NCBI GenBank assembly: GCA_948567375.1
Contig: OX419762.1
Coordinates: forward strand, 34,353,465 to 34,417,464
Length of the DNA stretch: 64,000 nucleotides
Direction of reading: 5' to 3'
Source: Lunularia cruciata
Lineage: Eukaryota > Streptophyta > Marchantiopsida > Lunulariales > Lunulariaceae
Part shown: positions 667 through 27,902 of the stretch, piece by piece
Layout of the letters: each line of letters opens with the position of its first letter
Numbering within the stretch: position 1 is the stretch's first letter
Notes under the pieces: generated by a model
Told to the model about the DNA's origin: nothing
The model's input: only the letters and a program-made list of their open reading frames with translations
Database searches by the model: none
Translations under genes and position numbers: made by a program

Positions 667-673
667 TGATTTT

Positions 674-5263: not shown

Positions 5264-5281
5264 ATTGCAAGAAAGATCTTA

Positions 5282-6538
5282 TTGTTTCAAGAATTCACAT
5301 ATACTATACAAGTAAGGAAAGGAGCTTTGCATTTGAATGAGGACTTCCTGTCCAAGTTAGAAACTCAAGACCAAGAATGGGAAATTGACGATTGGTTCCC
5401 TGATGAAGAGTTATATCAATTAACAACAATGCAAAGTACAAGGTATGCAGCCAAATATCATTATCTGCATACTCTCCATTGTCCTAAAGGGCTGGACCTG
5501 GAGCAAAGGGCAGTCTTTCTTAGGAAAATAGGGTCATATCAACTAAAACACAACATTTTATTCAAGATGGGCAAAGACAAAGTACTTTGGTGATGCTTGG
5601 AGTCATACAAAGTTGGAGGCATAATCAAGTCTTTACACTCTGAAGCATCAGGAGGACACTATGTTTTGAAGAATAATGTAAAGAAGATTCTTTCTTTGGG
5701 GCACTGGTGGCCTACGATGTACAAAGACATGCATGCACATATCCAAAGCTATGATGCTGGTCATGGAACGGGGAAGCCGATGGCTAATTCTCAATGGCCT
5801 TTGAGACCAATCTTACCCTTGGCTCCATTTGAGAAATGGGGAATTGATTTTGTGGGTCCCATTCAACTAGTGACCAGAGTCACAAGGAAGAGATACATTT
5901 TGGTTTGCACTGACTATGCTACCAAGATGGTCAAAGCTAAAGCAACTCGCAGAGATGATGCAAAGACTGTGGCGGAATTTTTCTTTCAAAACATCATCTC
6001 CCAATATGGATGTCCTTTGGAATTGGTTAGTGCCAAAGGGACACATTTTTTGAACTCTATAATGGAGGCGTTAAAAAAATACTTCCAGATCAAACATTGG
6101 AAGACGACTCCTTATAACCCAAAAGCAAATGGATTAATTGAAAAGGCAAATGGGTTACTTTGCAAAATTTTGAATAAGATGATTGTCAATTATGCCTATG
6201 ATTGGGATATGAAACTACTAGCCGCATTGTCGGCATATCAAATGACAAAAAGGATCACAACCAAACAAACTCAATACTTCTTGACATATGGCTTGCATCC
6301 CATACTACCAGTTGAATTTGAAGTACCGACATATTGGATTCTTTGCGAAGAACAATTGTCGGAGGAAGAAAGCCAGGATCTTTGGATCCATCAATTGATG
6401 TGGTTAGAAGAGAAAATAGACGATGTAATGAAAACCACAAAAGAAGTACAAGAGCAAAGGAAAGGCAGGCGTGATAAGCATATCAAGCTTGTGATTGTTC
6501 GTGAAGGAGATTTGGTTTTGTTATACGACAATCGCTGA
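5282..6538 (+). pseudogene. Integrase of Ty3-A
   Basis: Two open stretches, 5282-5593 and 5597-6538, are separated by a TGA. The first catalytic Asp is in WGIDFVGP, and the Glu is in the segment NPKANGLIEKANG. The second Asp of the DDE triad is replaced by Ala (VSAKGTHF instead of S-D-x-G-T-H-F). The zinc-binding Cys pair is also damaged in the N-terminal part. The polyprotein stops at 6536-6538 with no chromodomain. Known role: insertion of cDNA. The missing Asp alone would make it inactive. Confidence 0.88.
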
Positions 6539-6743
6539 ATTTTTTTCCAAGTAAGCTGCATTTGAGATGGATGGGGCCTTATTGAGTTCTTCATCTTTAT
6601 GAAAATGGGTCCATTCAACTTGCAGACCTAGAAGGCAATCCTTCCGCCACTCAAGTAAACAGGTGGAGAGTTTGGAGATATTGGACCATAGACTTGGAAG
6701 TCTCTAAGACACTCAAAGTCTATGTTCACGGGGACGCTCACAT

Positions 6744-6758
6744 TTGAGGGAGGGGGTA
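6744..6758 (+). promoter_or_regulatory. Polypurine tract of Ty3-A
   Basis: A purine run, TGAGGGAGGGGGTA, directly precedes the TG that opens the 3' LTR at 6759. Known role: plus-strand priming of cDNA synthesis. Confidence 0.75.
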
Positions 6759-8680
6759 TGTGGTACCCACATTTTTCATTTTGGACGAGTTTAGAATAAG
6801 AAGTGCCTTGCTGAAACCAAATTGAAACCAAATGGAGAAGAAATGAGGGGAAACTTGTATTTTGATCAAGCTTGAGGAAGTCAACTTTGTGTTAGAGGAA
6901 GAAGGACTCGGATTGGATCAGACCCAAAGAAGCTTACTTTGTGTCAGAGGAGGAAAAAACTCGGATTAGATGCCAAAGGAGGGCAAACCCAAAGGAGGAA
7001 GGGAAGTTGCATGTCAGGATTCGTGCAAGGGCCATATCTCAGTGACGACAAATCCAAATTATGCGTGCTATATCTTGTTAGAAGCGTCTTGTTTAGGCTT
7101 TTCATTGCCACCAAAATTGCATAGTTTAGAGGTATGTACAATAAGTTACAAGCATTTGAAGCTTTGGGAGTAGTAGTTTAATGTCTTTGGGTCAATGTGC
7201 CTTTGGACTTTAGACTTTGGACTTGAGACTTCTGACTTTGGACTTTAGGTTTACACAACTTTTGATTAGAAGCTTCTTTGCCTCAAGACAAAGATGACTA
7301 GATCTGAGATAGTCGGACCTTGGAGTGCAATGAAAGTGACTTGGGAATCTTGCCAGAGGCATTAGAGAGAGTTAGGATAGCAAAAAAAACTAGATAGTTA
7401 GGATACCCATGACTTCATTTTCAGTTCTGATTGAAGATAGGATAGAGTTAGAGGAGAAATAGTAGTAGTGAATAAACCCAAAGTGCAGGATCAAACAATA
7501 AATGTCTTTGGGTCAATAACATGAATGATTGGGGGAAAGTGGGTTACAAATTGAAGGTGTAGATAGTGTACCCATGCTTTTAATTACAACTCTTGATGAG
7601 GATATAGTAGAATTAGCAAAGGAATTGATAGTAGCTAAACCCAAAGTAGGTAACATAGGAGTGCAGATGTCTTTGGAGTTACCATCGGAGATATTAGAGA
7701 AGAGTAGGTTGGGAGATAAGGAGTTAGATAGATTACCCACTAGTGGAATTGCATATCAAGAGGAAGAAATGTTAGAATTGGTAGAGGAAGTAGTAGTTGT
7801 GAAACCCGAGGATAGAGTAGTAGTGAGTGAAGTTACTTTGGGATTGGGTTTGGAAGCCGATGAAGAAGTAGACATCGAATTGGATTAGTAGCAGTTTTGA
7901 GATTTGAAGAGATAGATATGAAGGGGTGCATTGTCATTTTGGATCTATAGGTTAGAAGAGTTGTTGTAGAACGGTACAGTTGTTAGAACTATTGTTTGCT
8001 TCACTATTTAAGAGTGACATTCATAGTAAAATGTTGTTCAGTGCTCATAAGTTTTGAGAATAGATAAAGCAAAGTGTTGTGAAGCAGTGCTTGTCCCTTC
8101 AGCTTGATTTCGAGTATCAACTTTGTGATTGTGATTGTGAGTGTGTGGAGAAATTCAAAGTGCAAGTCAGTGTGCTTGCTGGATGTTGGATTCCATAGCC
8201 TTGATCTTCATTCTGTATGTTTGATCTTGAGTGAAGTGCAATCGGAGCAATGCCTTGACAGATTTGAGAGGAATTGTAGTGTTGGTAGTATTTTGCACTT
8301 GTGAGTACAATGCAAAGTTGATGTGAAGCAATTTTGATCAAGGAAGTTGTGCCTTCAGTGGAGGGGTAGAACAAAATTCTGAAGCAAAGTTGTTTTGCAT
8401 TGAAGTGCCATTTTTGGGAGAGCCTGAATCATCACAATCAAGATTGTTTGGAAGATTTGATGGAATTGTGATTAAAGAATGTTGATTTGTGACAAGACTA
8501 CGAATCAATGCTTATTACTCTCTTTTGGGGGTGGTTTCTACCTGAGAGATTAAAGACGCAACCAAGAAGAACTACATCATGACATTTGACTTTGTTTTTG
8601 ACCAATTCTAAATTGTATCTCTACGGGAACAAACTTTACTTGCCCGATTACCGCAAAAGTGATATTGTCAGGTTGTCACA
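6759..8680 (+). repeat. 3' LTR of Ty3-A (~1.92 kb)
   Basis: It begins TGTGGTACCC after the purine tract and ends GGTTGTCACA, giving TGTG/CACA terminal inverted repeats. The last ~670 bases match the left LTR at 1-666. An open stretch at 7529-7888 encodes an acidic, Glu/Val-rich peptide of 119 residues that is also present, in longer form, at 54102-54690. It is partly duplicated in tandem (about 7370-7510 resembles 7510-7800). A coding-like segment inside an LTR is unusual and is reported as a finding. Confidence 0.8.
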
Positions 8681-8838
8681 TGGTATGATCTACAATAGAT
8701 GCGGAACCCAACTTTGTTCACACCCTTCTTGGAATGAAAAAGGTTTTTCCAACACTTGGAGGGTCACCAATGGATGACTACCATGAGTTCAAGAGAGCTC
8801 ACTTGGAGGAGATTGAGCTATAGAGACAATATTGGTCT

Positions 8839-10061
8839 TTGAACTATATCTCCATCACTTTAGGCTTGGTTTCTAAGGGCAGATTGGCACTACCCACAAG
8901 TTCTAGCTCTAGTAGTGTTGGTGGAGCTATTGGAGGTGCACTAGCTGGAGATAGTGCTACTACAAGTGGAGGTACTACTACAAGAGGTGGTGTAGTATCA
9001 TGGTTTAACCCCATGGTGGAGTTCTTCCAATGTTTGAGGTAGAACTACATGGGAGTGCAAACTAACAAGCTGAAGAGCTTGTAGGAGTTCCAAATGAAGG
9101 TTGAAAAGAGCCTATGCAAGGCATACACTCTCATGAGATGACTGATCAGTTTTACTAAGGGAGTTATTGAAGCCCATGCAGTCCAATTTTAGGAGTTGCA
9201 ACATACAATTCATGAAGCTATGTTGTTATGGGCTTCTTTGCCTATTTTGGCTATGGTCTTTGGTATGATTGAGCATATTGAGCTCAACATGGTGGCGGAG
9301 AGAGTGGTGATGTTTAGATTTGATAGGGAGATTTTATCTACAATTTTTACTTCTTCCAAAGTACAGCAAAGTGCACCACGCCATGTTGGTTTCCAAGGAC
9401 AAGGTGGACAACCTAGATCTTATTGAGCAAGTGGAGAGCCTAGTGTAGCTAGACCCTTACCTTCAATTTTGGGTCAATAGTAGCATTGAGTGGTGGTGTT
9501 GCTTGGTGGACTTGTATTGGACCTCACCACAAGAGAGAGTGCACTTAGAGCAGTGGATATAATACCTCTGGTGCATCATAGCCAACATAGAGATAGTGTG
9601 AAAATTGCCATAGATTTGGTCACACTAGTGATTGATGCTTTGACCTACACTCTGAGTTATGGAGTGGTAGGGCTACTATGGCAGGTGATAGAGGAGCTTC
9701 ATGTCATGGAAGAGAAGGTGGTAGAGGATCCACACCTGGTAGGGGTGTAGTACCTACCCTTACTTCTAATACAACCATGGCTACTTGGATTGAGCAATTG
9801 GAGCAGAGAATGGCTAGCATGCCTGTAGTTCAGAGGAGATCAGATTCAGGTGTTGAGGCTTCTACTTCATATGTTGGTGATAGGGACTTCTTGGACTTCA
9901 TGTGCAGAGAAGCACAAGTGGATACATTTGCCACAATGACTAGGAGTGCAATACGTGCTCTAGAGTCAAGAGGAGCATCAGTGGAGTTGAACCCACAAAG
10001 AGGAGAGGTTGTAAACAAGTCAAACTTCCTCAATCCTTTACACTCTCTAAGGCCCTATTGA
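8839..10061 (+). pseudogene. Gag and zinc knuckle of Ty3-D
   Basis: Fragmentary reading frames, with Ser/Gly/Thr-rich tracts at 8890-9000, precede a clear zinc knuckle at 9597-9638: C-E-N-C-H-R-F-G-H-T-S-D-stop-C, CX2CX4HX4C with a TGA before the last Cys. Downstream, 9678-10061 is open for 127 residues and includes MATWIEQLEQRMASMPV, a probable coiled-coil linker. Known role of such knuckles: nucleic-acid chaperone and RNA packaging. I do not recognise the domain before the knuckle. Confidence 0.6.
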
Positions 10062-10419
10062 TGACATCCATGGCTCCTAGACATCCTAGTGCAGGTGAGG
10101 TGGGTGGTGATGGGGTGCATGATAGACTACTTACTAGTCAACCACTTGCTACTATATCAATTGAGTCTAGCTTGACGTAAGGGGTGGCTTAGTTGATTAT
10201 GTGTTGTCCATTATTCTCAACCAATGACATGTATACATTAGGAGTTGACCCAACCCCAATATTTTGGTTGGTTGCCATGCTTTGTGATAGTAGGGATGAT
10301 GTGGTTCTTGCTTCTAAAGTAGAGGTGGTTGATAGTGGAGCTGACTAGGTTGAGGAGCATGGGATCCTCTCACCAACCAATGGTTTATGGCAAACAATAG
10401 CAGCTAGATTGGAGGAGTT

Positions 10420-10917
10420 ACCAACTAGACCAGCCTTTAAGCAAGCGCAGTTTACACTTAGGGTTATCTTATTGGATAACCAAAGGGAGATCTTTTGTTT
10501 GGTGGGACCTATACACCATAGAGGGTCTTATTAGACACTAGTGCATAGCCCTTTATGTTGGAGAAAGTTGTAATTGTCGGTCTAGAGTTATGAAAGACCA
10601 ATATGGAGAGGTATCCATTTCAGATCCAAACATCTCTAAGAGGTGATTCTACCCATTACATCACATGTGGAGAGCTTATTGTTCAGATTCAGCCCAATCA
10701 TCCAATTGATAGCTTTGTGGTGAGAGCTCACGCCATTGTGATTGTAGTTGAGTCATATGATGTGTTAGTTGAGAGAGCAATGTTATATCTCATGGGTTTC
10801 AATAGTAACTATTGGGAGGAGACAACGTCCTATAGACTAGGTTGGCAGTCAGGTGAGGGAAAATTATGTTGCCTACCAGTATGCTTTAGAAGTGGTAGTC
10901 TTGGCTCACTATAGTTT
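10420..10917 (+). pseudogene. Aspartic protease of Ty3-D
   Basis: The catalytic loop is at 10528-10545: L-L-D-T-S-A, in the place of L-L-D-[ST]-G-A, followed by a TAG where Gln is usual. The following stretch at 10603-10914 is open and holds FQIQTSLRGD, then VESYDVLVERAMLYLMGF, which corresponds to the usual Y-D-[IV]-L-[LV]-G block. Known role: polyprotein cleavage. The Gly-to-Ser change in the triad and the stop make it inactive. It is in frame with the methyltransferase start near 11206-11255. Confidence 0.65.
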
Positions 10918-11205
10918 GGGACCATGGCGGCATCAATTTCAACTTTTAGTGGTTCTATTACTTAGCCTGGTGACTTTTTGGAGAGGAACATCCATGCAGA
11001 GGATACTCCAATACTAAAGAAGATCACACAAATTTGGAGTATGAGTAGGATCATTCCATCCACCTTGGATGTTCCTTTCTGGAGTTCAGAGGAGACATTA
11101 CAGTAGCACGTGGATTTGTTGGTGCAAAAAATATGGAGTGGAGCCTTTGTACCACCAAGAGATGAATGTGAAGATGAGCCTCCATAGTTAATTACCTTGA
11201 CACCT

Positions 11206-11255
11206 TTGGATACCACACTCATTGTTGGGTAGTATCCAATAGAGGGAGTATGTTC
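11206..11255 (+). pseudogene. Start of the Ty3-D methyltransferase, cut by chromovirus B
   Basis: The last ~50 bases before chromovirus B are in frame with the methyltransferase motif I that resumes at 16861: after a TAG the codons give YPIEGV, then the LTR of B begins. Taking out the element and one copy of its imperfect target duplication joins the two parts without loss of frame. The exact start of the domain cannot be told because the boundary with the protease is not marked by a motif. Confidence 0.6.
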
Positions 11256-11668
11256 TGTAAAAGACCAAAACCAAGGAGAGAAATAGGAGAATGGAAATTC
11301 ACATTGGGACACTTGGATGAGGGAAAACTCCAAATGCCTAGTATGAGCTTCGGCCTTGGTATTTATAGGTAGCATACAAGACCCTTGAAGTTTCTCAAGA
11401 AGCTTCCTTGAACCGCTTTCTTGGAGTGCAAGCTAAGTTAACTAGGAAGCTTGTCAAGAAGCTTCCTTCTAGAAGCCGCCTACTTGGCATGCAAGCTAAG
11501 CTAGTTAGAAGCTTCCTTCTAGAAGCTACTTGCTTAGGGTGCAAGTTAACTAGTTGGGAAGCTTCCCAAGAAGCTTCTTAGATGCTTCTAGAATATTCTA
11601 GGCTATTTTGTCTTATTCTCTACTTCATAAGCCCGACTAAATTTGTCGCTAAACTCCATATTGTTACA
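11256..11668 (-). repeat. 3' LTR of chromovirus B
   Basis: 413 bp, matching 16434-16856. Terminal sequences TGTAA/TTACA. It abuts Ty3-D sequence at 11255. On the inner side lies a weak purine tract (minus strand GCGCGGGAATA) preceded by the chromodomain coding region. Confidence 0.92.
11586..11598. promoter_or_regulatory. Heat shock element in the 3' LTR of chromovirus B
   Basis: TTCTAGAATATTC, identical to 16774-16786 and at the corresponding place in the LTR. Further GAAGC/TTC units lie at 11400-11580. Confidence 0.78.
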
Positions 11669-11699
11669 TATTCCCGCGCTGCTAGTTGGTGACATCCTC

Positions 11700-11880
11700 G
11701 TCGCCAGTGAAGCTTCAAATTCCTTGATGGCCGTTTGTGCACTTTGGAGGTGGGAAAGAGGTTCCCATGTGGCATCATGAAGGAGATACCCTTTCCAAAG
11801 GACCTTGTACTCCGTATGTTGGCGACGGCCTTGTTGAATATGGCGACGCGCAAGGATACAATCAACTTTGTACTCCTCAT
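11700..11880 (-). pseudogene. Chromodomain of chromovirus B
   Basis: On the minus strand the segment opens EEYKVDCILARRH and continues EYKVLWKGYLLHDATWEPL, the typical chromodomain pattern with the Trp of W-K-G-Y and of A-T-W-E-P. It ends just before the 3' LTR. Known role: in plant chromoviruses it steers integration towards marked chromatin. The same domain is found in degraded form at 45520-45760. Confidence 0.85.
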
Positions 11881-11959
11881 GATCATTGATAGGGACAGGA
11901 AGAGGGGGAGGTTGGACTCAAGAGGAAAAGGAAGAGGGGTTAGGAACAAAAGGTTTCAA

Positions 11960-13178
11960 CTTGGAAACATGAAAGATAAGATGGATACGCATGTGACAAG
12001 GCAAGGCAAGTCAATAAGCAACAGTAGAGACAATGTGGGTGATATCAAAGGGTCCTATCCAATTAGGTGCAAGTTTACAAACTTGGGTATCAAGTGAGAG
12101 AGGGAGGTTACTAGGTGAGATCACGACGATGGTGGTCCGCATATTGTTTTTGGCAATTTTGAGCAACAAGGAGGTGAGACTGGGCTTGTTGGAGAGATTG
12201 AGATATAGTGGTCAAGAATGTGGAAGTATGAGGCACCTGAGAGGGAGGGGGAGCAAGAAGAGAATCTGGAACAAGTAGATCTTGGCCAAAATTGAGAAAG
12301 AAGGGAGAAAATCCGGTGCTTGCCTATTTGGAATTGTTGTAGGCAAATTCTGAAGCTACAAGATATTCATCCCAGTTGGTATGGTGGACATTGACAAAGG
12401 CCCGCAACATATCCTCCAATGTACAATTTGCACGTTTGGTTTGTTCATCAGTTTGAGGATGATAGGCTGTGGACAAAGCAAGCTTGGTGTTGAGTATCTA
12501 GAAGAGTGCTTGCCAAAACTTCCCGGTAAATCGAGGATCACGTTCGGAGATGAGTACACATGGCATCCCATGATGCTTGAAGACATTGTTGAAGTAGATT
12601 TGTGCTAAGGTTGGAGCATCCACGGTATCATAGGTTGGTGCTAAGTGGATTTGCTTACTAAGCTTATCCACAAACACCACAATTGCGGTGTGTCCTTGTT
12701 TTGTCTTTGGCAAGGATGTGATGAGATCCAAGCTCACATGCTCCCAACAAGCGGATGGAATGGCGAGTGGTTGAAGGAGTCCACTCGGCTTTTGGTTACT
12801 AGCCATGTTACGTTGGCAACTCTCACATGATCGGACAAAGTCTCGAACATCTCGTGTCATGTTGGGACACCACCATTGGCGTTGGAGGGTGCCCAAGGTC
12901 TTGTCCACTCCCATGTGACCAGCTATTGGTAAATCATGGGCTTCTTGAAGGTGCACAAGTTGAAGATCATCTTTAGCTGGATCATAGATTTGGTCTGCAT
13001 GGAATAAAAGGCCTTCCTTGAAGGAGAAGGTGTTGTACTCCTTGTCGCATGTTGTCAAACAACTGTGTACCATTTGGAAGAAGGGATCTTGTTGTAGAGC
13101 TGATTGAAACTCATTATGGACCTTAGGGTCAATGGACACCATTGTAATTGCCGCCATGATGAGAGGAAGGGCCTTCAA
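11960..13178 (-). pseudogene. Integrase of chromovirus B
   Basis: 13178-12498 is open for 226 residues and includes the HHCC module (HDLPIAGHMGVDKT, then CESCQRN) and the core start HVSLDLITSLP (first Asp). The second position reads ISERDPRFTGKFW, with R-D-P-R-F-T as in chromoviruses. The final Glu lies in the following, frame-shifted part near 12460. The region to ~11960 carries the GPY-like C-terminus in broken frames. Role: integration. Confidence 0.85.
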
Positions 13179-13289
13179 ATCAGGTCGTCATGATAGAGCA
13201 TCAGGGATGACATGGAACCGACCTGGTTTGTACTCAAGTTTGATGTCAAACAATTGATTCTTCCCATCGATGATGCCGACTCTTCATGT

Positions 13290-14670
13290 GCTCCAAGTGT
13301 AAGGTTTGCAACAATGGCTTGTGATCAGTTCGCATGATCACTTGTTTCCCCAAGAGATAATGCCTCCATACCTTGGTGGCATATACCATTGCAAGTTGTT
13401 CTCGATCTCAAGCAGGGTAATTTCTTTTAGCTGTATTTAGGCAATGAGACACAAAGGCAATAGGATGTAGTCCATCTAGAAATTCTTATTGCAACACAGC
13501 TCCAATTGCAAAGTTAGAAGCATCAAAATCAACCACACAAGGTAGTTGAGGATCATATGGTTGAAGAATGGGTCTTGAAGACACCATATGCTTTAACTTC
13601 TGGAATGCTTCTTCATGCTTGGTGGTCCATTGGAAGCTCAAGTTCTTTCCCAAGAGGTTAGTCAATGGTGCAGCCACATGAGCATAATAGTGGATGAACC
13701 GTCAGTAAAAACTGGCCAATCCATTGAATGCTCGTACTTCTATAGCATCCTTCGGAGTAGGCCAATCAGTAATGGCCTTGATCTTCTCTTCTTCCATCTT
13801 GATCCCCTCTGATGAGATCTTATGACCCAAGAAGGTAACTTCCTTCTGCCAAAAAGCACACTTTGATTCCTTGCAGTAGAAATTCCACCGTCGTAGTCGT
13901 TTTAGGACTTCTTGCACATGATTCACGTGTTCTGCCTCTGTCTTGCTATAGATTAGAATATCATCTAAGAACACCACCACGGACCGATCCAATAGTCCCT
14001 CCAACACCCGATGCATCTGATCCATGAAGATTGTTGGAGCATTAGTGAGTCCGAAAGGTAGAACTCTTCACTTGAAATGTCCATACCTTGTGCGAAAGGT
14101 AGTCTTTTGCACGTCCTCTCCTTCAATAAGAATTTGCCAATAGCCGCTACACAGATCTAGCTTGGAAAAGTAGCATGCTCCACTTAGTTGATCAAGCAGG
14201 TCATCAATCCGAGGCAAGGGATATGCATTCTTCACGGTTTGCTTATTGAGTCCACGGTAATCAATACAAAAATGAAGTCCTCCATCCTTCTTTGGAACAA
14301 ATAGTACCGGTGCTTCCCAAGAAGAGGTCCTATGTTGTATGAAATTGTTCTCCAACAACTCTATAAGTGTTGTTTGCAACTCCTCCAACTCCTTTGGTGA
14401 GAGCCAATAGATTGGTCTACTCACTGGAGTACTCCCTGGTGATAACTCAGTCTTGAAGGGCATACCTTGATCAGAGGGTAATCCCTTTGGTAGATCATCC
14501 AGAAACACATCTGCAAACTCCTGAACTATCCAATCAACCATTGCTTGATGAGGCTCTTGGTCCTCCTCATATTGTTCTTGTGCAATCAGCTTGACCCACA
14601 ACGCAAATACAGACTTATCTTCCTCCAAAGCTTGCTCTATGGCCGATTCATTAACAAACTTCCCTTCCAA
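13290..14670 (-). pseudogene. Reverse transcriptase and RNase H of chromovirus B
   Basis: Minus-strand open stretches at 14670-14068, 14025-13702 and 13677-13486. Motifs: [29 protein letters not shown] and VVVFLDDILIYSKT (intact FLDD box). RNase H: CVVDFDASNFAIGAVLQ, then HYLLGKQVIM and TDHKPL near 13300-13350 in a stop-containing stretch. The single stops between stretches include TAA or TAG where Gln or Tyr are expected. Role: reverse transcription. Confidence 0.9.
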
Positions 14671-14793
14671 GGACTCATCTCTCTTCCAGGCTTGCTCCTT
14701 GGTTGCCTTCTTGGCAAACTTCCCATCTTGGGACTCATCTCCCTTCCAGATTCGCTCTATGGCTACCTTCTCGATAAACTTCCCATCTTGGGA

Positions 14794-15231
14794 CTAACTA
14801 TTCTTAGGCGTCTTACTCAAAGGTGCCAGAAAACCTAATTGGAAATTTCTACCTTGGTGTTGTACTTGAATTTGTCGTCGGGTCCAATCAAATTGAACCT
14901 TATGACGTTCAAGCCAAGGTAGACCCAAAATGATATCATAGTGTAGAGGTGCCACTACAAACCTCATACACTCCAAATACTTCTTCCCAATCTTGAAGGT
15001 AACAGGATGTGAGGTGCAGAATGCAGAACCCTTTCTACCATCCGCCATCATCAAACTACTTCCAAACATTGGCTTGATAGGAATACCCAGTTCCTTTGCT
15101 ACTTGCATAGACATGCAATTCTTTGAACTTCTAGAATCAACCAAAATCCTACAACCCTGATTAGATATCGTACCTTGCAAGTGAAGCAAACTTGCATAGG
15201 TCAAGCCTTCAATCCCATTGGAACTAATCAA
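14794..15231 (-). pseudogene. Aspartic protease of chromovirus B
   Basis: 145 residues in one open frame. The catalytic loop reads ILVDSRSSKN where D-S-G-S-S is expected, so the triad Gly has become Arg, a single G-to-A step from GGA. The later block DIILGLPWLERH is the normal I-[IL]-G-x-P-W-L motif. Role: polyprotein cleavage; inactive by the Gly change. Confidence 0.78.
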
Positions 15232-15247
15232 GCTCTCAATAGGCGGC

Positions 15248-16190
15248 TCAAAATCTCCTATTGGGATTCTTTGTTTCCTTGATCATTTTGTTCCACAAAC
15301 TCCATGTGGGCAACTTGTCGAGGTCGCCCATTCCTAAGTGGACATTCAGCAATGCGATGTCCAACTTGGTGACAATAAAAGCAACCTCCATTTTGTCGTA
15401 ATCTTTCTCTATCTGTTGAGCCAAGTGGTCTTTGTTGGATAGCATCAATCTCCATTGGTACCGGTTATTCCACTCGTGCGTAGTGTACTGGTAGGCTTTG
15501 TGTAGGTTGAGGTCGAGACCAAGTTGTCGCAACCAAGGAATCAAAATACTCAGCCAATTGCATGGCTTCTTCTATGTTTTGTGGCTCCTACATGGTCACC
15601 TCCAATTTGGTTCTTGACTTCAATCCTCACACAAATTGATCTAGAACTTCACCTTCTTGGATATCTAGAATTTGCATGATGATATTCTAACTTGCATGAT
15701 GTAGCTTCTCACTGAGCCAATCTGCCTCAACTCCACCAATTTATCTCGTGTGACTCGAGTGGCATTTATAGTTTGAAATCGACCAAGTATTACATCTTTG
15801 AATTTTTCTTATGTCAAAATTAGTGTAACAATTTGTCGTTCAGCTCTTTCTACTCAAAATCGCCACCAAAGTTTTGCCACGCCATCCAATTGGCTAGAAG
15901 CCAAGAGAATTTTTTTCCGTTTGTCTTGAAGATTGGTGGCTTCAAAGTAACATTTGCAGTCAAACACAAAATTCTCCACTGTGCCTGGAAGATTCTTGCC
16001 TTCAAACACCTTGGGTTTCAGAAATCAAATGCGATCTTCTCCATCTCAAACTGGCGCTTTGTCTATTTGTTCTCGTCGTTGCTGGTCTCGTTCATCCAAC
16101 AATCAAGTAAGATGCTTGATTTGTTGTTGTATTGCAAGGATAACATCCGGTATTGCTGCCATCGCTACTACTCTATTCCACTATACTCAA
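15248..16190 (-). pseudogene. Gag of chromovirus B, with zinc knuckle
   Basis: Minus-strand fragments between 16190 and 15550 read like a retrotransposon Gag domain, including a Gln-Leu-Asp-Gly-Val-Ala-Lys-Leu-Trp-Trp block, but in broken frames. The nucleocapsid part is clear: C-F-Y-C-H-Q-V-G-H-R-I-A-E-C at 15342-15383, a CX2CX4HX4C knuckle. Stops and frameshifts separate the segments. Role: particle formation. Confidence 0.7.
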
Positions 16191-16195
16191 TTTAT

Positions 16196-16411
16196 CTAGT
16201 TGATTAACACATAGATACAACACGTCCACCGTTCTCCATAAGTTACAACTGGAAGTATCAAGGGTTCCTCTGACACGGTGATCATATGTAGAAAATCCTG
16301 CCCAAAGCGCAAGGTGATGAATTGTGTGAAACGATGCTTTGGTAATATCTGGATATGAAAGTCCCAATGGTTTGGTGGAAGTGGATTTGGTGGTCCATAA
16401 ATTCCATCCAT
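16196..16411 (-). CDS. Leader peptide of chromovirus B (upstream of Gag)
   Basis: A 71-residue open stretch directly after the primer site, starting at an ATG and ending LIN. Its C-terminal part, PLILPVVTYGERW then IYVLIN, resembles the leader peptides of chromovirus C (27541-27762), of the C-family copy near 59381 and of the fragment at 51936-52139. Function unknown. It precedes Gag and is not joined to it in an open frame. The conservation across diverged elements is the only evidence that it is coding. Confidence 0.5.
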   Translation of the reverse strand: MDGIYGPPNPLPPNHWDFHIQILPKHRFTQFITLRFGQDFLHMITVSEEPLILPVVTYGERWTCCIYVLIN

Positions 16412-16420
16412 CCCATTCCT

Positions 16421-16432
16421 GCTCTAATACCA
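16421..16432 (-). promoter_or_regulatory. Primer binding site (tRNA-Met type) of chromovirus B
   Basis: TGGTATTAGAGC on the minus strand, one base after the LTR end; TGGTATCAGAGC is the usual plant initiator tRNA-Met site, so one C-to-T difference. Confidence 0.85.
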
Positions 16433-16537
16433 ATGTAAAAGACCAAAACCAAGGAGAGAAATAGGAGAATGGAAATTCACATTGGGACACTTGGATGAGG
16501 GAAAACTCCAAATGCCTAGCATGAGCTTTGGCCTTGG

Positions 16538-16545
16538 TATTTATA
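16538..16545 (-). promoter_or_regulatory. TATA box of the chromovirus B 5' LTR
   Basis: TATAAATA on the minus strand (in CCTATAAATACC), downstream of the heat shock elements in the direction of element transcription. The other LTR keeps it at 11360-11367. It probably marks the end of U3. Confidence 0.75.
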
Positions 16546-16685
16546 GGTAGCATACAAGACCCTTGAAGCTTCTCAAGAAGCTTTCTTGAGCCGCTTTCTT
16601 GGAGTGCAAGCTAAGTTAACTAGGAAGCTTGTCAAGAAGCTTCCTTCTAGAAGCCGCCTACTTAGCGTGCAAGCTAAGCTAGTTA

Positions 16686-16712
16686 GAAGCTTCTAGAAGC
16701 TTCCTTCTAGAA
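16686..16712. promoter_or_regulatory. Heat-shock-element array in the 5' LTR of chromovirus B
   Basis: GAAGCTTCTAGAAGCTTC is four consecutive alternating GAA/TTC units with the 2-base spacing of a plant heat shock element (16686-16703), followed by TTCTAGAA (16705-16712). It is palindromic, so it works in either orientation. It lies about 140 bp upstream, on the minus strand, of the TATA box at 16538-16545. Confidence 0.75.
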
Positions 16713-16773
16713 GCTACTTGCTTAGGGCGCAAGTTAACTAGTTGGGAAGGTTCCCAAGAAGCTTCTTAGGTGC

Positions 16774-16786
16774 TTCTAGAATATTC
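16774..16786. promoter_or_regulatory. Second heat shock element in the 5' LTR of chromovirus B
   Basis: TTCTAGAATATTC, three perfect alternating units, ~70 bp from the LTR edge in the U3 part. The same 13 bases occur at 11586-11598 in the other LTR and at 45397-45409 in the diverged B-family LTR, although the rest of that LTR has drifted. Confidence 0.8.
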
Positions 16787-16856
16787 TAGACTATTTTGTC
16801 TTATTCTCTACTTCATAAGCCGGACTAACTTCATCGCTAAACTCCATATTGTTTCA

Positions 16857-17241
16857 ATGTCTATTGGAGTTGTTTGGTGAGATTAGCACTGAACTAGCTA
16901 TGGTACTACATGCAAGTATACAAGTACAGAGGTACTTGTATATGGAGAGAGATGAGATTGCTAGGTGAGTCTCTCTACATCATGTGGCATGCTTGGCCTA
17001 TTGGTATCCAGGGTTATTATTGATATTGGCAATCAAGTGTTACTAGAAGACCCTAACAATAGACATTTCCTTGTTGGGGGTACAAGATTTGGATAAACAT
17101 GGTCCCATTCATTTAATGATTTTTGGATGGCCATGTTAGAGACATACACATGCTGGCCAAGTTATGGGTCTTCAAGATCCCCATTCTGGTGTATTTTGGG
17201 AGATTTTATGTATACTACGACATCTCCAGGTTCATCAATCC
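16857..17241 (+). pseudogene. C5 cytosine DNA methyltransferase of Ty3-D, N-terminal half (motifs I-IV)
   Basis: Seen: motif I as LELFGEIST (16864-16890) followed by the AdoMet-pocket pattern Y-L-Y-M-E-R-D-E (motif II), then DISLLGVQDLD (motif III region), then FGWPC (17122-17136) followed by a TAG where Gln is usual and by HTHAG (motif IV). The PC dipeptide at 17131-17136 is the catalytic Cys loop of C5 methyltransferases. Known: these enzymes transfer a methyl group from AdoMet to C5 of cytosine in DNA. Order I-IV before VIII-X is the canonical order, unlike the rearranged plant DRM enzymes. Three in-frame stops make it inactive. The right edge is an insertion of repeat S. Confidence 0.85.
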
Positions 17242-17640
17242 TATAACACCCATTTGTGCATGTGTGTGGTATTATGATATTTAGTTTGGTATTACAAGTA
17301 CTTGAGAGATATTATTTATATAAAGATAAGTGATGGTTCTACCTTAGTCATGATTAGCTAAATTTAGTCATAGCTAAGATAGAGTGGATCTTACTTTAGA
17401 GGAAGTAAGAAAAATGAGCATCACTATTTTGGATTCTAGTGTATTGACTTGGTATTATTTCTAGGTATTTGGTTTTGAGGAAAGAGTTAAGAACTCTTGG
17501 ACCAACAAGCCTTTTTGTTTTGGATTCTTCTATAGTCTAAGGATTGCACATGTGAAGGAATATTTGACTAAGTGGTTGGGTCAAGATAAGACCATATGCT
17601 TAGGAGAATATTCTCATGAGTAAGGATATTCCTTGATATA
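17242..17640 (+). repeat. Repeat S copy 1: truncated LTR in opposite orientation
   Basis: Begins TATAACACCC, which is the reverse complement of the right end of the three full copies (for example 58011-58020), and follows them for ~400 bases until the GAATATTC region. The remaining ~290 bases of the repeat are missing. It sits inside the methyltransferase of Ty3-D. The TG expected at the LTR edge is TA here. Confidence 0.7.
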
Positions 17641-17641
17641 A

Positions 17642-17725
17642 GGACCTGATGTGCACTCGCCACCACCCAAGTGCTATTGATGGGTGATTCTTGCACTTGG
17701 GTGGTGGTGAGTGTACATCAGGTCC
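17642..17725. repeat. 33 bp inverted repeat (palindrome) at the broken methyltransferase
   Basis: The left arm 17642-17674 and the right arm 17693-17725 are reverse complements with two mismatches, both of which would be G-T pairs in a folded strand. The loop is 18 bases. The right arm is coding sequence of the methyltransferase, the left arm is not, so the left arm looks like an inverted copy made at the junction with the truncated repeat S. Confidence 0.85.
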
Positions 17726-18245
17726 ATTCTTGGATGGGACCCATCTTGTTGTTAGATGCAACCAGAGTGGGATCATGGGCTCATCATCTTTGTATTTGGT
17801 GGACAAACCTCTTACCCAAAGAGGTTCTCCAACATGCTTATGATAGGATTCAGCGACTTGACTACATTATGTTGATGATATCTTGGATGTTGGGCGTCAG
17901 TCTTAGATGGTAGTAGTGGCTGATAGGTCACCTATAGCAATGGTGAACCTAGTTGGACAACCCCTAGCCACTTTTCCCACACTTCTGAGTTTCCCAAACT
18001 CCCATTGAGAGAGAGGTCCTAGATTTGTTTGGGACTCATAATTATAGCAATTGGTGGAACCCAATGCCAATGAGAGAGAGCGGGCAATGGGTTTTTGCAT
18101 TGGTATTACAGTTTTTCCAGTAGTGTTAGAGGCATCCATGCATTAGTTGTTAGGGCAGGTTGTGGACCTAAATTTGTTGACCTAGATTGTGAGCCTTGGT
18201 TTAGCAAAGCAACATAGGATACCCTTGATAGGCATCACCACTTGG
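17671..18245 (+). pseudogene. C5 cytosine DNA methyltransferase of Ty3-D, C-terminal half (motifs VIII-X)
   Basis: Open at 17671-17913: VHQVHSWMGPILLLDATRV, then AHHLCIWWTNLLP, which fits motif VIII of DNMT3-type enzymes (A-H-R-x-R-x-x-W-x-N-L-P). After a frameshift between 17913 and 17940 it continues with MVNLVGQP and ends with N-A-N-E-R-E-R-A-M-G-F (18063-18095), the motif IX/X region with the M-G-F-P block, and LGLAKQ. The ENV motif (VI), expected just before 17671, is absent: it is replaced by repeat S and an inverted duplication. Inference: originally a de novo-type CG or CN methyltransferase; target context cannot be read. Confidence 0.8.
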
Positions 18246-18540
18246 ACACTTGTGAGCTTTGTGCCTTTTGAGACAATTCAGGCACATGCTAGGGGTGACG
18301 GACCAAGTGGAAAAGGTATTCTTGGGACATATCCAGTGTCTATTAAGGAGAGTGGTCTACTTGGAGTCCATCCAAGTGAGCCTGGTCTACTTGGATTACA
18401 CCCTTGGTCTCCTTGGGATGCATTAGAGGACGTATGGAGCTTGCAACCAGATTGGAGGGAGTTTTCACATGGAGGTTGGGACCTCTAGTGGTTGGGGGTA
18501 TGACACTACTGCTCCTAAGGGCCTAGTGTAGCAGCCAATC
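18246..18540 (+). other. Ty3-D linker between methyltransferase and RT
   Basis: Continuation of the Ty3-D coding region, open at 18189-18488. It contains two Gly-Leu-His-Pro-rich segments (GLLGVHPSEPGLLGLHPW). No domain recognised. It probably links the methyltransferase to RT. Confidence 0.5.
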
Positions 18541-19990
18541 AGTACGTCTTCCACCCTTACATCAATTATAGAGGAACTTGGGAGCCAGATCGGGGATCCA
18601 AGCTCACAAGAGAGGAAAGACAAAGAGTTTGGAGGTTCTTGAGGAGCTACACAAGTTGTTTGGCTTTCAATATGAAGGATTTGGGTGCTCTAAAAGGACT
18701 TGGTATTTCAATTGAGCTAACTAGCAATACACTAGTTTTTTGACATCTTTATCAATATAGTGATATGGAGAGAGCATTGATTTAGAGCCGGGGTAGAGAC
18801 CTTTTTGAGACTGGTTTGGTGGAGATTTCACATAGAGAGTATGCATCAACTATAGTGATGCCAGCCAAGAAAGATATGCATGGAAACTATACAGATAGGC
18901 AGATGTGTGGAGATTACCATCCTATCAACCAATAGACTAGGGCTGATTGGTATGTCATGCCTACACCAAAGGAGATCTTTGATGTGATTGAGCATGCAAA
19001 GGTCTTCAATACTTTGGATCTTTGAGTTGGATATCATCAATTGTTGTATCAAGGAGGAAGATAAGTCCAATACAATATTTTAGGCTATTGATCCTCACGG
19101 CAAGGATGTGTTATATCAATAGAGGTTCTTACCATTTGGGTTAAACAATGATCTTGCTGAGTTCCAAAGGGTCATGGACAAGATCCTAGCTAGATTAGAT
19201 TTTGCCCAATGTTATATTGATGACCTTTTGGTCTATAGCATTACTATGGAGAAGCATGAGAGACATTTGTAAGAGGTGTTTGAGAGGTTCAAATCTCATA
19301 GACTCAAATAACATCTTGGGAAGTGTAGGTTCTTCCACAAGCAAATTGAGTATTTGGTTCACACTATCTACCTTAAAGGACTTGGTGTTCAGCAGACCAA
19401 GGTGGAGGCTATTGCATGTATTCCTTGGCCTATGGATGGGAGCAAAGTGCAAGCATTCCTTGGGTTGCCAAACTTCTATTGTTGCTATGTTAGAGGATTT
19501 AGTGCCATTGCCAAGGCCTTGATGAAGTTAACCAAGCTTACATAGGAGTGGTGCTGGAGAGATGAGCAAGAGAGAGCTTTTGTAGAGCTCAAGGAGAGGT
19601 TGATATCTACCCTTATTTTGAGGAGACCAATTAGGGGACAACCATTTCAGGTTCACATTGATTGGAGTATGTTGGAGCTTGGAGCAGTGCTCACCTAGCA
19701 TAATGATGAGGAGAAGGAGTTTATGGTAGCCTATGCTAGTCACTCCAACAATTTAGTGGAGGCAAAGTATAGTTCATATGAGGGAGAGAGCTTGGCAGCA
19801 ATATAGGCAATAACACATTTCCAATGTTACTCTTGGTAACCCCTTTACTCTCAGCACTTACCATCAGCCATTGAACTGGTTGATGGAGTCCAACAAGCTT
19901 TCACAATGGGCTTTGATTTTACAAGAGTATGATTTCATGGTTATTCACAAACCTGGAGTGGTGAACGGTGATGCAAATGGGTTGAGTAGA
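18541..19990 (+). pseudogene. Reverse transcriptase and RNase H of Ty3-D
   Basis: The RT part runs from SDMERALI and GLVEISHREYAS near 18770-18850 through MCGDYHPINQ (18905) to LDL-stop-VGYHQLL (19015-19040). The active-site box is CYIDDLLVYS with YIDD at 19213-19224. Thumb and connection: GLGVQQTKVEAI and AFLGLPNFY. RNase H part: HIDWSMLELGAVLT, SSYEGESLAA, HQPLNWLMES and DANGLSRNPCPS at its end near 19980. The box Tyr-Ile-Asp-Asp is intact but several TAG/TAA stops occur elsewhere. The frame is shared by long segments. Role: reverse transcription and template removal. Confidence 0.88.
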
Positions 19991-20329
19991 AACCCATGTC
20001 CTAGCCATCAAGATCAGGCCAAAGCACATTGGCATGGAGACAAATGAGGAGACGATGCCAGGTTGGAATGCATCTACCTTTCTTTGCATAGTTACTAAAG
20101 CTTTGGTGGTATATCTCTCAATGCATACAAGAGGAGTTATTGAGGTCACAAATCCAAAGAAGGGATATTGTGGTAGAGTTCAATGAGATATTCATGATGA
20201 TGTCTTAGTGATGGACTATCTTTGCATTGGTATTATGGGTGGCATAATTGGGGCCAAGGAGAGAGATCTTGTTCTTCAACAAGCTAGATTGTTTAGATTG
20301 GAGTGCAGACACCTTTTGTGTGTATGGGA

Positions 20330-21480
20330 AGATGAGAAAGTATGAGTAGTACCACTTCTATCTCAGAGACCACATTTGGTCCATCATGCTCATGAGAAGC
20401 TAGGACATTTTGGAGTAAAGCATACATATAGTTTACTCTAGAGTCATTATTGGTGGCACGGTATGCAAACCAATGTATAGCAGTTTGTTGCTAGATGTGT
20501 GGTTTGTGATCAAGTTAGAGCATCATGCAATGCTCCTATGCCATGGTAACACCCATTACCTATCAATGGTTAGGTTACCATTGGAGTTTGGACTTTGGTG
20601 GACCTTTACCATTGACTATGAGACATCATTGGTATGTTTTGGTTATGGTGGAGCACTTCTCCAAGTGGATTGAGTTGGTGGCACTTCTTGACAAGTCCAA
20701 TGAAGGGACGGCTTACTTGTTCTTGGATTGGGTTCTCAAACATTTTGGTGTACTAGTTGAAGTTTTGTTTGATCTAGACATAGAGTTCTTGGAGGAGTTT
20801 CAGGTCTTGTGTGACAAGGCTTTGATTGATCATCATACTACTTCTTGACATCACCCTAAGGCAGATGGCTTAGTAGAGAGAGTGGTTTACACAATGAAGA
20901 GAAGATTATATTAGTATGATTTGCAGAGAGGCCACTTGAGAGATTGGGATCTCCTTGGCTAGCCATGGGCTATTGTTTTAGCTGGCAAGCCTCCTTAGCA
21001 TCCTTCTCTCCTTAGTTTCTACTCTATAGATGAGATCTAGATTTACTTGCAGCCATTCATTAAGATGCTACTATAGTTTTGGACTTGGATGATCCAGATG
21101 TATGAATGAGCACATGTTCTTAATGGGCAGAGATCTTTCAAAGTGATGGTGGTGCCGATGGCCTTTGAGAACTTGGTAACTGCTTAGCATAGGGATACCT
21201 TACGCTATGCTACCATTTGAGGAGGAGGTTATAGACCCTTGATCCATCAATTTCATCCAAGTGACTATGTATATCTACAATAGGCAACATCAATGATGCT
21301 TGATGTTTCTACAAGCCGCACTATCTTGAGAGTGCATGAGGTTTTGCCATCTGGAGTCCTTTTGTTGGACAAATGTGATGGTGTTGTTTGGAAGGATCAT
21401 GTACGCAATTTTGTGCCATGCCACCTCCCAAACATTGCTGGTACTATGGACCCAAGCTTGGCACTTGTACATGTAGGCTT
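20330..21480 (+). pseudogene. Integrase of Ty3-D
   Basis: The HHCC zinc module is visible as HHAHEKLGHFG (near 20380) and ARCVVCDQ (near 20490-20515). The catalytic core has SLDFGGPLPL (first Asp), a second Asp in VLFDLDIEFL, and the Glu in ADGLVERVV near 20865-20885. After the core a GPY-like module ends with HVRNFVPCHLPNI (21400-21435). Numerous stops are present. The coding region continues past a TAG at 21482-21484 straight into the PHD finger. Role: insertion of element DNA. Confidence 0.82.
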
Positions 21481-21484
21481 GTAG

Positions 21485-21625
21485 TGTATGTTATGCAGCT
21501 CTTTTGGTGGAGCTGCTACTATGTTAGTGTGTGATAGTTGTTTGAGAGGATGACATATGGCATGTTTGATTCCTCCCCTTACGGTGGTTCCTCAAGAACA
21601 ATGATTATGTCCTAGATGTCCTTGA
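21485..21625 (+). pseudogene. C-terminal PHD finger of the Ty3-D polyprotein
   Basis: Directly after the integrase the same frame gives CMLCSSFGG, then MLVCDSC, LRG-stop-H-M-A-C, L-I-P-P-L, and finally L-C-P-R-C-P and a stop at 21623-21625. The spacing C-x2-C-x11-C-x2-C-x4-H-x2-C-x14-C-x2-C is the C4HC3 pattern of a PHD finger. Both in-frame TGA codons fall exactly where PHD fingers carry Trp (before the His, and two residues before the last Cys pair), so both fit TGG to TGA changes. Known: PHD fingers bind histone H3 tails, often according to H3K4 methylation. Inference: a targeting reader, as chromodomains are in chromoviruses. Confidence 0.82.
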
Positions 21626-21780
21626 CCTATAGTTAGTTCATCTTTTATATGGTATATATTGCAGAAAGGTGACCAATGATGAGGCTAAATAGCACCCGGC
21701 CTCTTGATCTTTTGCCCACCATAGGGTATACCATATACTTGGACTAGATGGCTATTTGGAGTTAGAGGGACCTAACTACA

Positions 21781-21794
21781 ACCTAGGGGGCAAT
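21781..21794 (+). promoter_or_regulatory. Polypurine tract of Ty3-D
   Basis: ACCTAGGGGGCAAT lies just before TGTGGCACTTT at 21795, where the 3' LTR is inferred to begin. Only part of it is purine. The same LTR opening recurs at 28931. Confidence 0.5.
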
Positions 21795-22031
21795 TGTGGC
21801 ACTTTAGAGTCCATGTATGACTTATGTGTGAGTTGTTCTCCTATAGTTTGTGATGTTTACAACAATGTATGTTGTATAATGATGTATATATGCATGACAA
21901 CTATCATGCCATTTGTAGCATCACACCTAGATTGCTTGGACTCTGGAGTATTAGTGTTGGAAGTTAGGAGTACTTTGGCAATTACTCATAAACTACTTTT
22001 TCATGGTCAAATTTTGTGTTTGGGGTATTGA
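21795..22031 (+). repeat. 3' LTR of Ty3-D, part 1 (before chromovirus C)
   Basis: Begins TGTGGCACTTTAGAGTCC. It continues after chromovirus C at 28649; the joined sequence matches 47897-48330 without a break, which shows that C split one repeat. The downstream end of the LTR cannot be fixed because no left LTR is in the window. Confidence 0.65.
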
Positions 22032-22774
22032 TGTAATACTCCAAGGACAAGAGAAGAGAGAAAACACCGATTGCACACTCAAACATTTGATGCCCCAAGG
22101 GAGCACCTTCTCTTTATTATATAGACAAAGAGGATCTCCTCCAAGGAAGCTCCACCACAGGATTAGGGACACATATAGGTGACATGTCAGCAATCTCCAA
22201 CCTTGGATTACTTACTTGGATGGGTGACCTGTCTGGTCTAGGTCCTATCTGGTTGGTCAAACGAGCTTTGACCGGAGAGAATCTTTTAGGGAATCTTCCT
22301 ATAGGAATCTCAGAATCACATGAGTAAGGTACCATTGGAAAGCTCTCAATGAGACAAAGCAGGGGGAGGGAAGGTCAGCCTTTCCTCCATTTGGGGGGGG
22401 GGGGAATCCGCACATTTTCAAGGCCTAATTCATCCGTTTAGGCCTCCGAAATTGCCTTCAAAGATTTCAGGCATATTTCGGTTCCTACTCTATTAGTAGA
22501 AGTCCCCTTTTGGTGATAATATTTTCTGATCTGTTTAGTCCATCATGTGTAACATCCTTCCAGATGTTACGAAACCAATTCTCACCTTTAAATCATATGT
22601 CTAGCTATTGGTTCTAAGGTTCTCAAGTCTATTTCGGTTTCTGCCCTATTAGTAGAAGTACTCTTTTGGTGATACTTCTATCTGATCTATTTTGACCATC
22701 ATGTATAACATCATTCTAGATGTTACCAAACCAAATTTCACATCTAGATCATATGGCTAACCCTTGGTATTACA
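22032..22774 (-). repeat. 3' LTR of chromovirus C
   Basis: 743 bp, matching the other LTR, with a TATATAA box at 22117-22123 (minus). It contains a G-run of 12 or more bases near 22387 that is shorter in the partner. Confidence 0.95.
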
Positions 22775-22789
22775 GACCTCCCTCCTTTT
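22775..22789 (-). promoter_or_regulatory. Polypurine tract of chromovirus C
   Basis: AAAAGGAGGGAGGTC on the minus strand, adjoining the 3' LTR; it overlaps the end of the polyprotein. Confidence 0.85.
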
Positions 22790-26330: not shown

Positions 26331-26370
26331 AATTGGTAGAAATGTGCCCAATACGGCCACAATTGTAACA
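26329..26370 (-). pseudogene. Zinc knuckle of chromovirus C Gag
   Basis: C-Y-N-C-G-R-I-G-H-I-S-T-N-C on the minus strand, intact CX2CX4HX4C. It is in a different frame from the Gag domain, so a frameshift lies between about 26370 and 26586. Confidence 0.85.
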
Positions 26371-27901: not shown

Positions 27902-27902
27902 T

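Follow-up and report, generated by a model that had tools for sequence, protein, structure and literature searches.

The window, that is, the whole 64,000-nucleotide stretch of Lunularia cruciata DNA analysed here, contains what is probably a decayed member of a large and recently active Gypsy-type retrotransposon family with DIRS-like split repeats and a DNMT3-like methyltransferase, an enzyme that would be made upstream of a readthrough stop and would methylate the element's own DNA. What the sequences themselves show is the domain architecture, conservation of the catalytic residues, terminal repeats, 4-bp target duplications, many word matches in the genome, and a young age for the copies that score best.

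The window copy and its family

The original prediction placed at 8681..21795 a Ty3-type element whose C5 methyltransferase lies between protease (PR) and reverse transcriptase (RT), and blastn with young copies confirms it: positions 2103-4721 of a young copy correspond to 8681-11253 of the window (80.8%, E 0), 4718-5101 to 16857-17240 (82.6%, E 1e-109), and 5135-9324 to 17676-21836 (86.1%, E 0), alignments on which a chance match of motifs is rejected. The motifs lie where they had been reported, namely LELFGEIST (16864-16890), FGWPC (17122-17136), the motif VIII-like AHHLCIWWTNLLP and NANERERAMGF (18063-18095). The limits stand in part: the sequence is that of the element, but the copy extends both ways, from C12:34350457, upstream of the window, where its 5′ part lies, to about 29032, the reach of its 3′ repeat block, and 11256-16856 and 17241-17675 are foreign insertions (Table 1). 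Other genomic copies continue across the junction of the former, and the latter has replaced about 34 bp holding motif VI. With four insertions interrupting it, motif VI gone and many stops, the window copy is dead; no target duplication is readable at it, and the sequence ATTGA, recognized by eye, flanks the retroelement at 22032-28643 on each side.

Table 1. Features of the window copy, of the sequences inserted in it and of a second family copy, in window coordinates
Feature	Position	Strand	Basis or remark
LTR element inserted in the outer copy's gag	1..8680	+	LTRs of 1.9 kb with 88.8% identity; 1234 bp of the element precede the window
Outer element: remaining gag, zinc knuckles, protease (~10528-10917), linker to motif I	8681..11255	+	blastn 80.8%, frames read
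Nested LTR retroelement inside methyltransferase motif I	11256..16856	-	LTRs 11256-11668 and 16434-16856; pair 93.9%
First methyltransferase piece (motifs I-IV, Pro-Cys loop), with three in-frame stops	16857..17240	+	PF00145 E 0.00096; 82.6% to element copy
Second insertion, LTR-like repeat	17241..17675	unassigned (.)	inverted matches 46788-47178, 57629-58020, 62993-63386
Methyltransferase motifs VIII-X, frameshifted	17676..18212	+	motifs read, blastn to element copy
In-frame TAG stop with readthrough context (TAG CAG CCA), separating gag-PR-DNMT from RT	18529..18537	+	same site in fetched copies
Reverse transcriptase and RNase H, broken	18594..19957	+	tblastn 63-77% to another copy's ORF2
Integrase, broken	20316..21480	+	tblastn
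PHD finger, decayed but readable	~21487..21619	+	tblastn; end from alignment, start estimated
Terminal repeat B1	21793..21899	+	86.9%
Terminal repeat A2, first part	21901..22031	+	71.8%
LTR retroelement inserted in A2	22032..28643	-	LTRs ~743 bp, 95.7%; minus-strand pol frames
Terminal repeat A2, remainder	28646..28927	+	80%
Terminal repeat B2, closing the copy at its 3′ end	28929..29032	+	aligned to 29023; last bases by eye
Second, older family copy, 5′ fragment (repeat A and gag start)	47907..49543	+	68-77%

The original prediction considered the element fossil in this genome, which is true of the window copy and untrue of the family, given that a methyltransferase 26-mer matches at 3415 places and an RT 26-mer at 4919 (controls 0), that the best-scoring 119 RT matches are 98-100% identical, and that identity between paired repeats in three copies is 98.0-99.3%; the copies that score best are young and bear signs of recent movement. 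In 20 of 20 fetched copies protease, methyltransferase and RT each span 90% or more of their full length, with the methyltransferase uninterrupted. Family copies lacking the methyltransferase between protease and RT, which would have refuted the original prediction, were looked for, and at 12 RT places picked as without the exact methyltransferase word the domain was whole in nine, partial in two and in one the copy was broken inside RT, the protease being joined straight to RT in none.

Young copies have the arrangement gag-PR-DNMT, UAG, RT-RH-IN-PHD, and in 31 fetched copies the stop between DNMT and RT is TAG in 30 and lies in TAG CAR YYA in 28. The domain order PR-RT-RH-IN, with a zinc-binding and an rve integrase, is that of Ty3/Gypsy elements (the protease giving a Pfam match in homologues only), but in place of two whole identical LTRs there is A alone at the 5′ end and B-A-B at the 3′ end. 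This A-coding-B-A-B arrangement was recognized in the five copies examined, complete in L009, L012 and L014 (A1 of L014 being incomplete in the fetched sequence) and, for the B-A-B side, in L010 and L013. Both ends are readable in two young copies, which show, by eye, the 4-bp target duplications ACTC/ACTC and TTTA/TTTA. A Pfam search with one ORF1 and one ORF2 gave an rve integrase and no tyrosine recombinase, the enzyme expected of DIRS elements. ORF2 ends in a PHD finger (PF00628, 2.2e-10 in another copy's ORF2) whose best PDB matches are CHD4, KMT2D, an MLL3 homologue, PHF12, KDM5B and DPF3. Chromoviruses, which are Ty3 elements with a chromodomain after the integrase, likewise have a chromatin reader at the integrase C-terminus, in contrast to the PHD finger, and the additional DNMT, of the Lunularia family.

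The methyltransferase domain

The Pfam check suggested with the original prediction gave a divided answer, as the window piece with motifs I-IV matches PF00145 (E 0.00096) at 19.1 bits, below the cut-off of 22 bits, whereas an open-frame copy elsewhere in the genome reaches 30.4 bits, above it; the window piece with motifs IX-X gave no Pfam match, and a PDB search with the window pieces alone gave nothing significant. The supposed likeness to DNMT3 agrees with a profile search, where the best match is DNMT3A (3.3e-26), and with a fold search using the predicted structure (pLDDT 93.2), headed by DNMT3A/3B entries (6f57, a DNMT3A-DNMT3L complex, E 3e-19, TM 0.73, 21% identity), DNMT2, a tRNA methylase, being far behind in both. 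The domain is thus closest to DNMT3 by profile and fold, and CG methylation of DNA is its predicted activity. An origin from DRM is rejected, because motifs IX-X do not precede motif I and the order is canonical, as had been claimed. A DRM-like frame of the host, L002, is rearranged.

The catalytic Cys and Glu are kept in all 30 copies read, 10 of which had not been selected for an open frame, and these two residues together with one motif VIII Arg are unchanged in all 14 diverse homologues compared. The methyltransferases of those 10 copies have from 1 to 11 stops each, and two motif VIII Arg are each kept in just four of them, so that searches listing the best matches overstate the number of intact methyltransferases. 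In 20 copies selected for an open frame (19 for the gag end), pN/pS is 0.38 for the methyltransferase, 0.27 for RT, 0.31 for PHD and 0.32 for PR, and 0.54 for IN, 0.54 for the post-DNMT region, 0.59 for the linker and 0.89 for the gag end.

Relatives, origin and possible role

Homologues, in two domain orders, were found in Marchantia, Calypogeia, Sphagnum, Closterium and metagenomes, those of Marchantia polymorpha being annotated as hypothetical proteins, and literature titles and abstract openings yielded no report of DNMT retroelements in bryophytes. A scan of viral contigs gave 51 loci with best-segment identities of 25-50%, one scan of genome contigs with P0020 found no relative, and no row named Klebsormidium was present among the matches listed (including the best 120 of 407 and the best 120 of 230), most rows being without an organism name. 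In the quick DNMT tree two clades, A and B, have support of 92 and 93; in the careful tree, from which the long rows were removed, clade B has 98/89 and clade A falls to 59/45, so that clade A may be paraphyletic. In the RT tree clade B has 100 and A is basal, and the IN tree leaves A and B unseparated. Both DNMT trees omit P0036, P0104, P0065 and P0074 (partial), and the careful one also DRM, P0075, human DNMT3A, P0058 and P0060; rows called "bacterial" are metagenomic or bacterial matches, a label assigned in this analysis.

If the methyltransferase had joined the element at the window locus alone, by nested insertion, it would be understandable that 16857-17240 starts exactly where the nested LTR ends; the probability of this is negligible, however, and it is refuted by the 20 fetched copies, with the domain in one piece, as well as by Marchantia proteins P0010 and P0019, in which DNMT and RT occur together. 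A recent capture from the host's own DNMT3 within the liverworts, for which the DNMT3-like host genes L001 and L004 would speak, is very improbable, as the 39 retro-DNMTs (liverwort and metagenomic) of the careful tree form one clade (100/100) outside that of plant DNMT3 (13 rows, 100/99), which includes the host gene.

From its place ahead of a stop with readthrough context, the DNMT is predicted to be provided at a Gag-like dose through UAG readthrough. At that dose it would be packed with the element RNA and would methylate the element's own new double-stranded DNA, possibly circular, with the B-A junction representing the joined ends; this methylation could help the element DNA to pass for host chromatin or to settle in silent chromatin, and the integrase-borne PHD finger would read histone H3 and so contribute to the choice of site. 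That the element methylates its own DNA, as had been supposed, is plausible; the self-silencing or camouflage strategy attached to that supposition is conjectural.

Alternatively, the methyltransferase could have been kept for another substrate, for instance the element RNA or the priming tRNA, or could bind nucleic acid as a component of the particle, without DNA methylation being its role; its location before the stop, together with Gag, is compatible with this, and RNA methylation was raised for LINE-borne enzymes by de Mendoza and co-workers (PMC5890265), but the conserved catalytic residues and a nearest kinship with DNMT3, well ahead of DNMT2, make it rather doubtful. Self-restraint, in which the enzyme would methylate and silence the element's own insertions with less harm to the host, appears unlikely. 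It would be in keeping with the strong C-to-T decay of the window copy at CG (174/407) and CHG (273/742) versus CHH (233/2479), and with a CHG share above that of three inserted elements, where the comparisons and ages differ; against it, the LTRs of the 1-8680 element, which lacks the DNMT, have a similar bias (CG 21/74, CHG 17/106, CHH 78/1235), and the thousands of word matches speak against strong restraint. CG scars also occur in the three inserted elements, none of which carries a DNMT, and the scars fit host CG/CHG methylation.

Known systems and significance

The precedent invoked by the original prediction is confirmed: DNMT-bearing retroelements were earlier described from a charophyte alga and from dinoflagellates (de Mendoza 2018, PMC5890265). 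The element of Klebsormidium nitens, KnitGypsy-Dnmt3, as described there, shares with the Lunularia family a Gypsy-type pol, a DNMT3-related domain without the DRM rearrangement and the DIRS-like A-coding-B-A-B repeats, a kinship that rests on described structure because a Klebsormidium sequence was not found for comparison. Purifying selection was reported for it and is indicated for the Lunularia family, and a yeast test of its enzyme had an inconclusive outcome (PMC5890265). The Lunularia family differs in its land-plant-like genome, its 3400-4900 word matches, the UAG between DNMT and RT, and the PHD finger after the integrase, which is absent from the main text on KnitGypsy-Dnmt3 (PMC5890265). 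SymbioDIRS-Dnmt3 of Symbiodinium is alike in its DNMT3 within pol, A-B-A-B repeats and two domain orders, but has a tyrosine recombinase, in contrast to the rve integrase and 4-bp target duplications seen here. The DNMT3 of land plants (MpDNMT3a/b and kin) has the same catalytic order and motifs, although it bears PF11926, forms a clade separate from the retro-DNMTs and, in the host gene here, is split into exons.

Judged from its sequence, the family extends a known kind, the retrotransposon-borne DNMT3, to land plants, with a PHD finger, readthrough, relocation and high copy number as added parts. We tentatively raise the possibility that a DNMT3 was captured once, anciently, and inherited together with its retroelement since before the streptophyte lineages split, with one move within pol (PR-DNMT-RT to RH-DNMT-IN), and that, with the PHD reader and the Gag-dose readthrough, it would constitute a portable writer-reader pair that sets chromatin state at thousands of insertions, thereby helping to shape the host methylome. 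The Gag-like dose of DNMT is a specific and checkable prediction, and given the thousands of word matches and the homologues in the model Marchantia polymorpha, it becomes a testable question why a silencing enzyme should be part of a transposon.

Identity and decay of the window copy

The window element is very probably a Gypsy-type element that carries a DNMT3 and is of the same kind as KnitGypsy, a likeness drawn from described structure: A-coding-B-A-B repeats and Gypsy domains are common to the liverwort family and to KnitGypsy-Dnmt3 of Klebsormidium nitens, whose matching repeat pattern and domains are described in the legend of Fig. 4 of de Mendoza 2018 (PMC5890265), the pattern being written out in that of Fig. 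1. That work established DNMT-bearing retrotransposons as a kind, and a 2025 paper (PMC12344493), in the passage concerned, restates it for streptophytes and dinoflagellates, citing Copia and DIRS, not Gypsy. In excerpts of the open-licence literature, we found no paper on bryophyte copies, the PHD finger or the readthrough stop of DNMT retroelements.

The methyltransferase motifs of the original prediction (I at 16864-16890, the PC loop at 17122-17136, VIII within 17671-17913 and IX/X at 18063-18095) were confirmed by reading the window sequence. A DNA_methylase profile match had also been expected: the first window piece does match PF00145, but below the 22-bit cut-off (19.1 bits, E 0.00096), and the other three pieces gave no match in that search; the proof was taken from other copies in the genome, in which the window is part of contig C12. 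Aligned to L009, a young copy of the family, the window gives consecutive pieces at 8681-11253 (80.8%), 16857-17240 (82.6%) and 17676-21836 (86.1%).

The window copy is dead, and four insertions interrupt it; a clean target duplication was sought for this old copy and none was readable.

Insertions and outer parts of the window copy (window coordinates unless a contig is named)
Feature	Position	Strand	Remarks
LTR element, insertion	upstream of window to 8680		LTRs 88.8%
LTR element, insertion inside motif I	11256-16856	minus	LTRs 93.9%; target duplication imperfect
LTR-like piece, insertion	17241-17675		about 34 bp holding motif VI lost
LTR element, insertion inside repeat A2	22032-28643		LTRs 95.7%; ATTGA at both flanks
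5' part (repeat A and gag start)	C12:34350457-34352230		outside the window
3' end	near 29032		B2 alignment and reading by eye

An inverted repeat of about 30 bp (17649-17720, by eye) adjoins the insertion where motif VI was lost. An LTR-like repeat family lies in both orientations at 17241-17635, 46788-47178, 57629-58020 and 62993-63386, one member being inside the methyltransferase. The window also holds, at 47907-49543, a 5' fragment (repeat A and gag start) of a second, older DNMT-element copy, 68-77% identical to a young copy, and, at 38393-38884, a 246-bp tandem duplication of 99% identity.

Young copies and their coding order

A PF00145 search of the genome (566 Mb, 74 contigs) scored 123 of 2161 candidates, mostly at profile positions near 48-120, and from these places 20 copies were fetched, selected for long open frames; all 20 hold the methyltransferase, with 95.8-100% identity over 990 bp to the reference copy L014. 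Further copies, which the original prediction had proposed to seek genome-wide, were found: 26-base words (at most 2 mismatches) match at 3415 places for the methyltransferase, 4919 for RT and 4721 for PHD, these being word matches and not whole-copy counts, and the reversed control words at 0 places for each. In the RT protein search, the best 119 of 46549 candidates were scored, and these are all 98-100% identical. Within three copies, A1 and A2 are 98.0, 98.7 and 99.3% identical, which, assuming some 7e-9 substitutions per site per year, gives a rough age of about 0.5-1.4 million years.

Family copies lacking the methyltransferase between protease and RT were looked for, and protease is joined to RT in none of 12 RT places on contig C1. 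These were picked by eye from the first 13 there for which no exact match to the methyltransferase word lay where expected (one of the 13, omitted, has the word 288 bp off). The methyltransferase is full in 9 and partial in 2 (one just 178 bp), and one place is broken inside RT. Other copies have decayed: the methyltransferase is free of stops and gaps in 0/10 copies taken by RT word, against 11/20 chosen for open frame.

In young copies, ORF1 encodes gag with two zinc knuckles (by eye), then an aspartic protease (recognized by eye from DSGA; matched in Pfam for homologues only) and then the methyltransferase, whose motifs (I, IV, VI, VIII, IX and X) follow the canonical order. In ORF2, RT and RNase H are followed by integrase and a PHD finger (PF00628, 2.2e-10). 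The two frames of L014 are in phase, with one TAG between. This stop is TAG in 30/31 copies (31 of the 32 given were aligned) and TAG CAR YYA, the readthrough context of tobacco mosaic virus, in 28/31; the window copy retains TAG CAG CCA at 18529. Lying between methyltransferase and RT, the TAG puts the methyltransferase on the Gag side. The stop is not universal, since the homologues P0034, P0043 and P0065 have DNMT and RT in one shared frame.

Of five copies examined, three have a complete A-coding-B-A-B pattern, with A of about 450 bp and B of about 110 bp, and the other two have its B-A-B side; the terminal sequences are TGTCACGCC and CGCACGACA. Two copies are readable at both ends and have 4-bp target duplications (ACTC, TTTA). 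In both, the B-A junction contains two additional bases (GC, GT) between CA and TG, as would be expected if integrase trims the ends before joining.

Kinship of the methyltransferase

A profile from 14 diverse domains found DNMT3A as the top PDB match (3.3e-26) and DNMT3B next (1e-22), followed by 4onj (2.5e-14; titled 'DNA methyltransferase', which we take to be tobacco DRM), DRM2 (2e-12), HhaI (1.3e-10) and then DNMT2; nothing named DNMT1 is among the matches listed. The predicted structure (pLDDT 93.2) likewise has its best fold matches in DNMT3A and DNMT3B entries, at 18-22% identity. Protein searches gave 75 homologues at E <=1e-3 and 407 at E <=1e-8; those named (among the 75 and the best 120 of the 407) are from Calypogeia fissa, Marchantia polymorpha, M. 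paleacea, Sphagnum fallax, S. troendelagicum and Closterium. P0082, filed as a Candidatus Obscuribacterales DNA cytosine methyltransferase and 49% identical to the retro-DNMT, is probably eukaryotic contamination of a MAG or a stray contig.

Two domain orders occur: PR-DNMT-RT, in liverworts and kin, and RT-RH-DNMT-IN-PHD (P0037, P0041, P0050 and P0055 by Pfam, others by coordinates). The careful DNMT tree unites 39 retro-DNMTs in one clade (100/100); in it the second-order DNMTs and three short rows group together (98/89), the first order being weak (59/45); 13 plant DNMT3s, the host's own included, are set apart (100/99). The RT tree, whose outgroups are just the window's three other RTs, agrees (second order 100, first order basal), and the integrase tree does not separate the two. 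The trees are consistent with a single capture and a single relocation. The host has two DNMT3-like places, in exons: L001 1501-1818 (C7:31989837), nearest to MpDNMT3b (66%), which would suit a liverwort-like genome, and L004 1501-1665 (C1:51668693), the more fragmentary of the two and perhaps a paralogue or relic.

Methylation scars and a possible role

The catalytic Cys and Glu are retained in 30/30 copies, and the two motif VIII Arg in 19/20 and 20/20 open-frame copies, against 4/10 each in the others; pN/pS of the methyltransferase is 0.38, of purifying type, a value to be read with the choice of copies and recent neutral changes in mind.

In the window copy, C-to-T changes, scored relative to a single young copy instead of an ancestor, affect 43% of CG, 37% of CHG and 9% of CHH sites, a scar left by methylation at CG and CHG. 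Elements without a DNMT are scarred as well: the LTR pair at 1-8680 (CG 28%, CHG 16%, CHH 6%), those at 11256-16856 (3/22, 0/8, 9/313) and 22032-28643 (7/48, 3/81, 8/497), and another repeat (5/20, 7/23, 16/219). CG decay is thus general, with CHG decay seen in the older ones, and the scar points to host silencing rather than to the element's own enzyme, though of the elements compared the DNMT copy has the largest CHG share. In the yeast assay of de Mendoza 2018 (PMC5890265), dinoflagellate DIRS enzymes methylated CG, while the outcome for the enzyme of Klebsormidium was not clear. For the role of the methyltransferase in this family, we tentatively favor, at somewhat less than even chances, that it would methylate new cDNA, inside the particle or just out of it.
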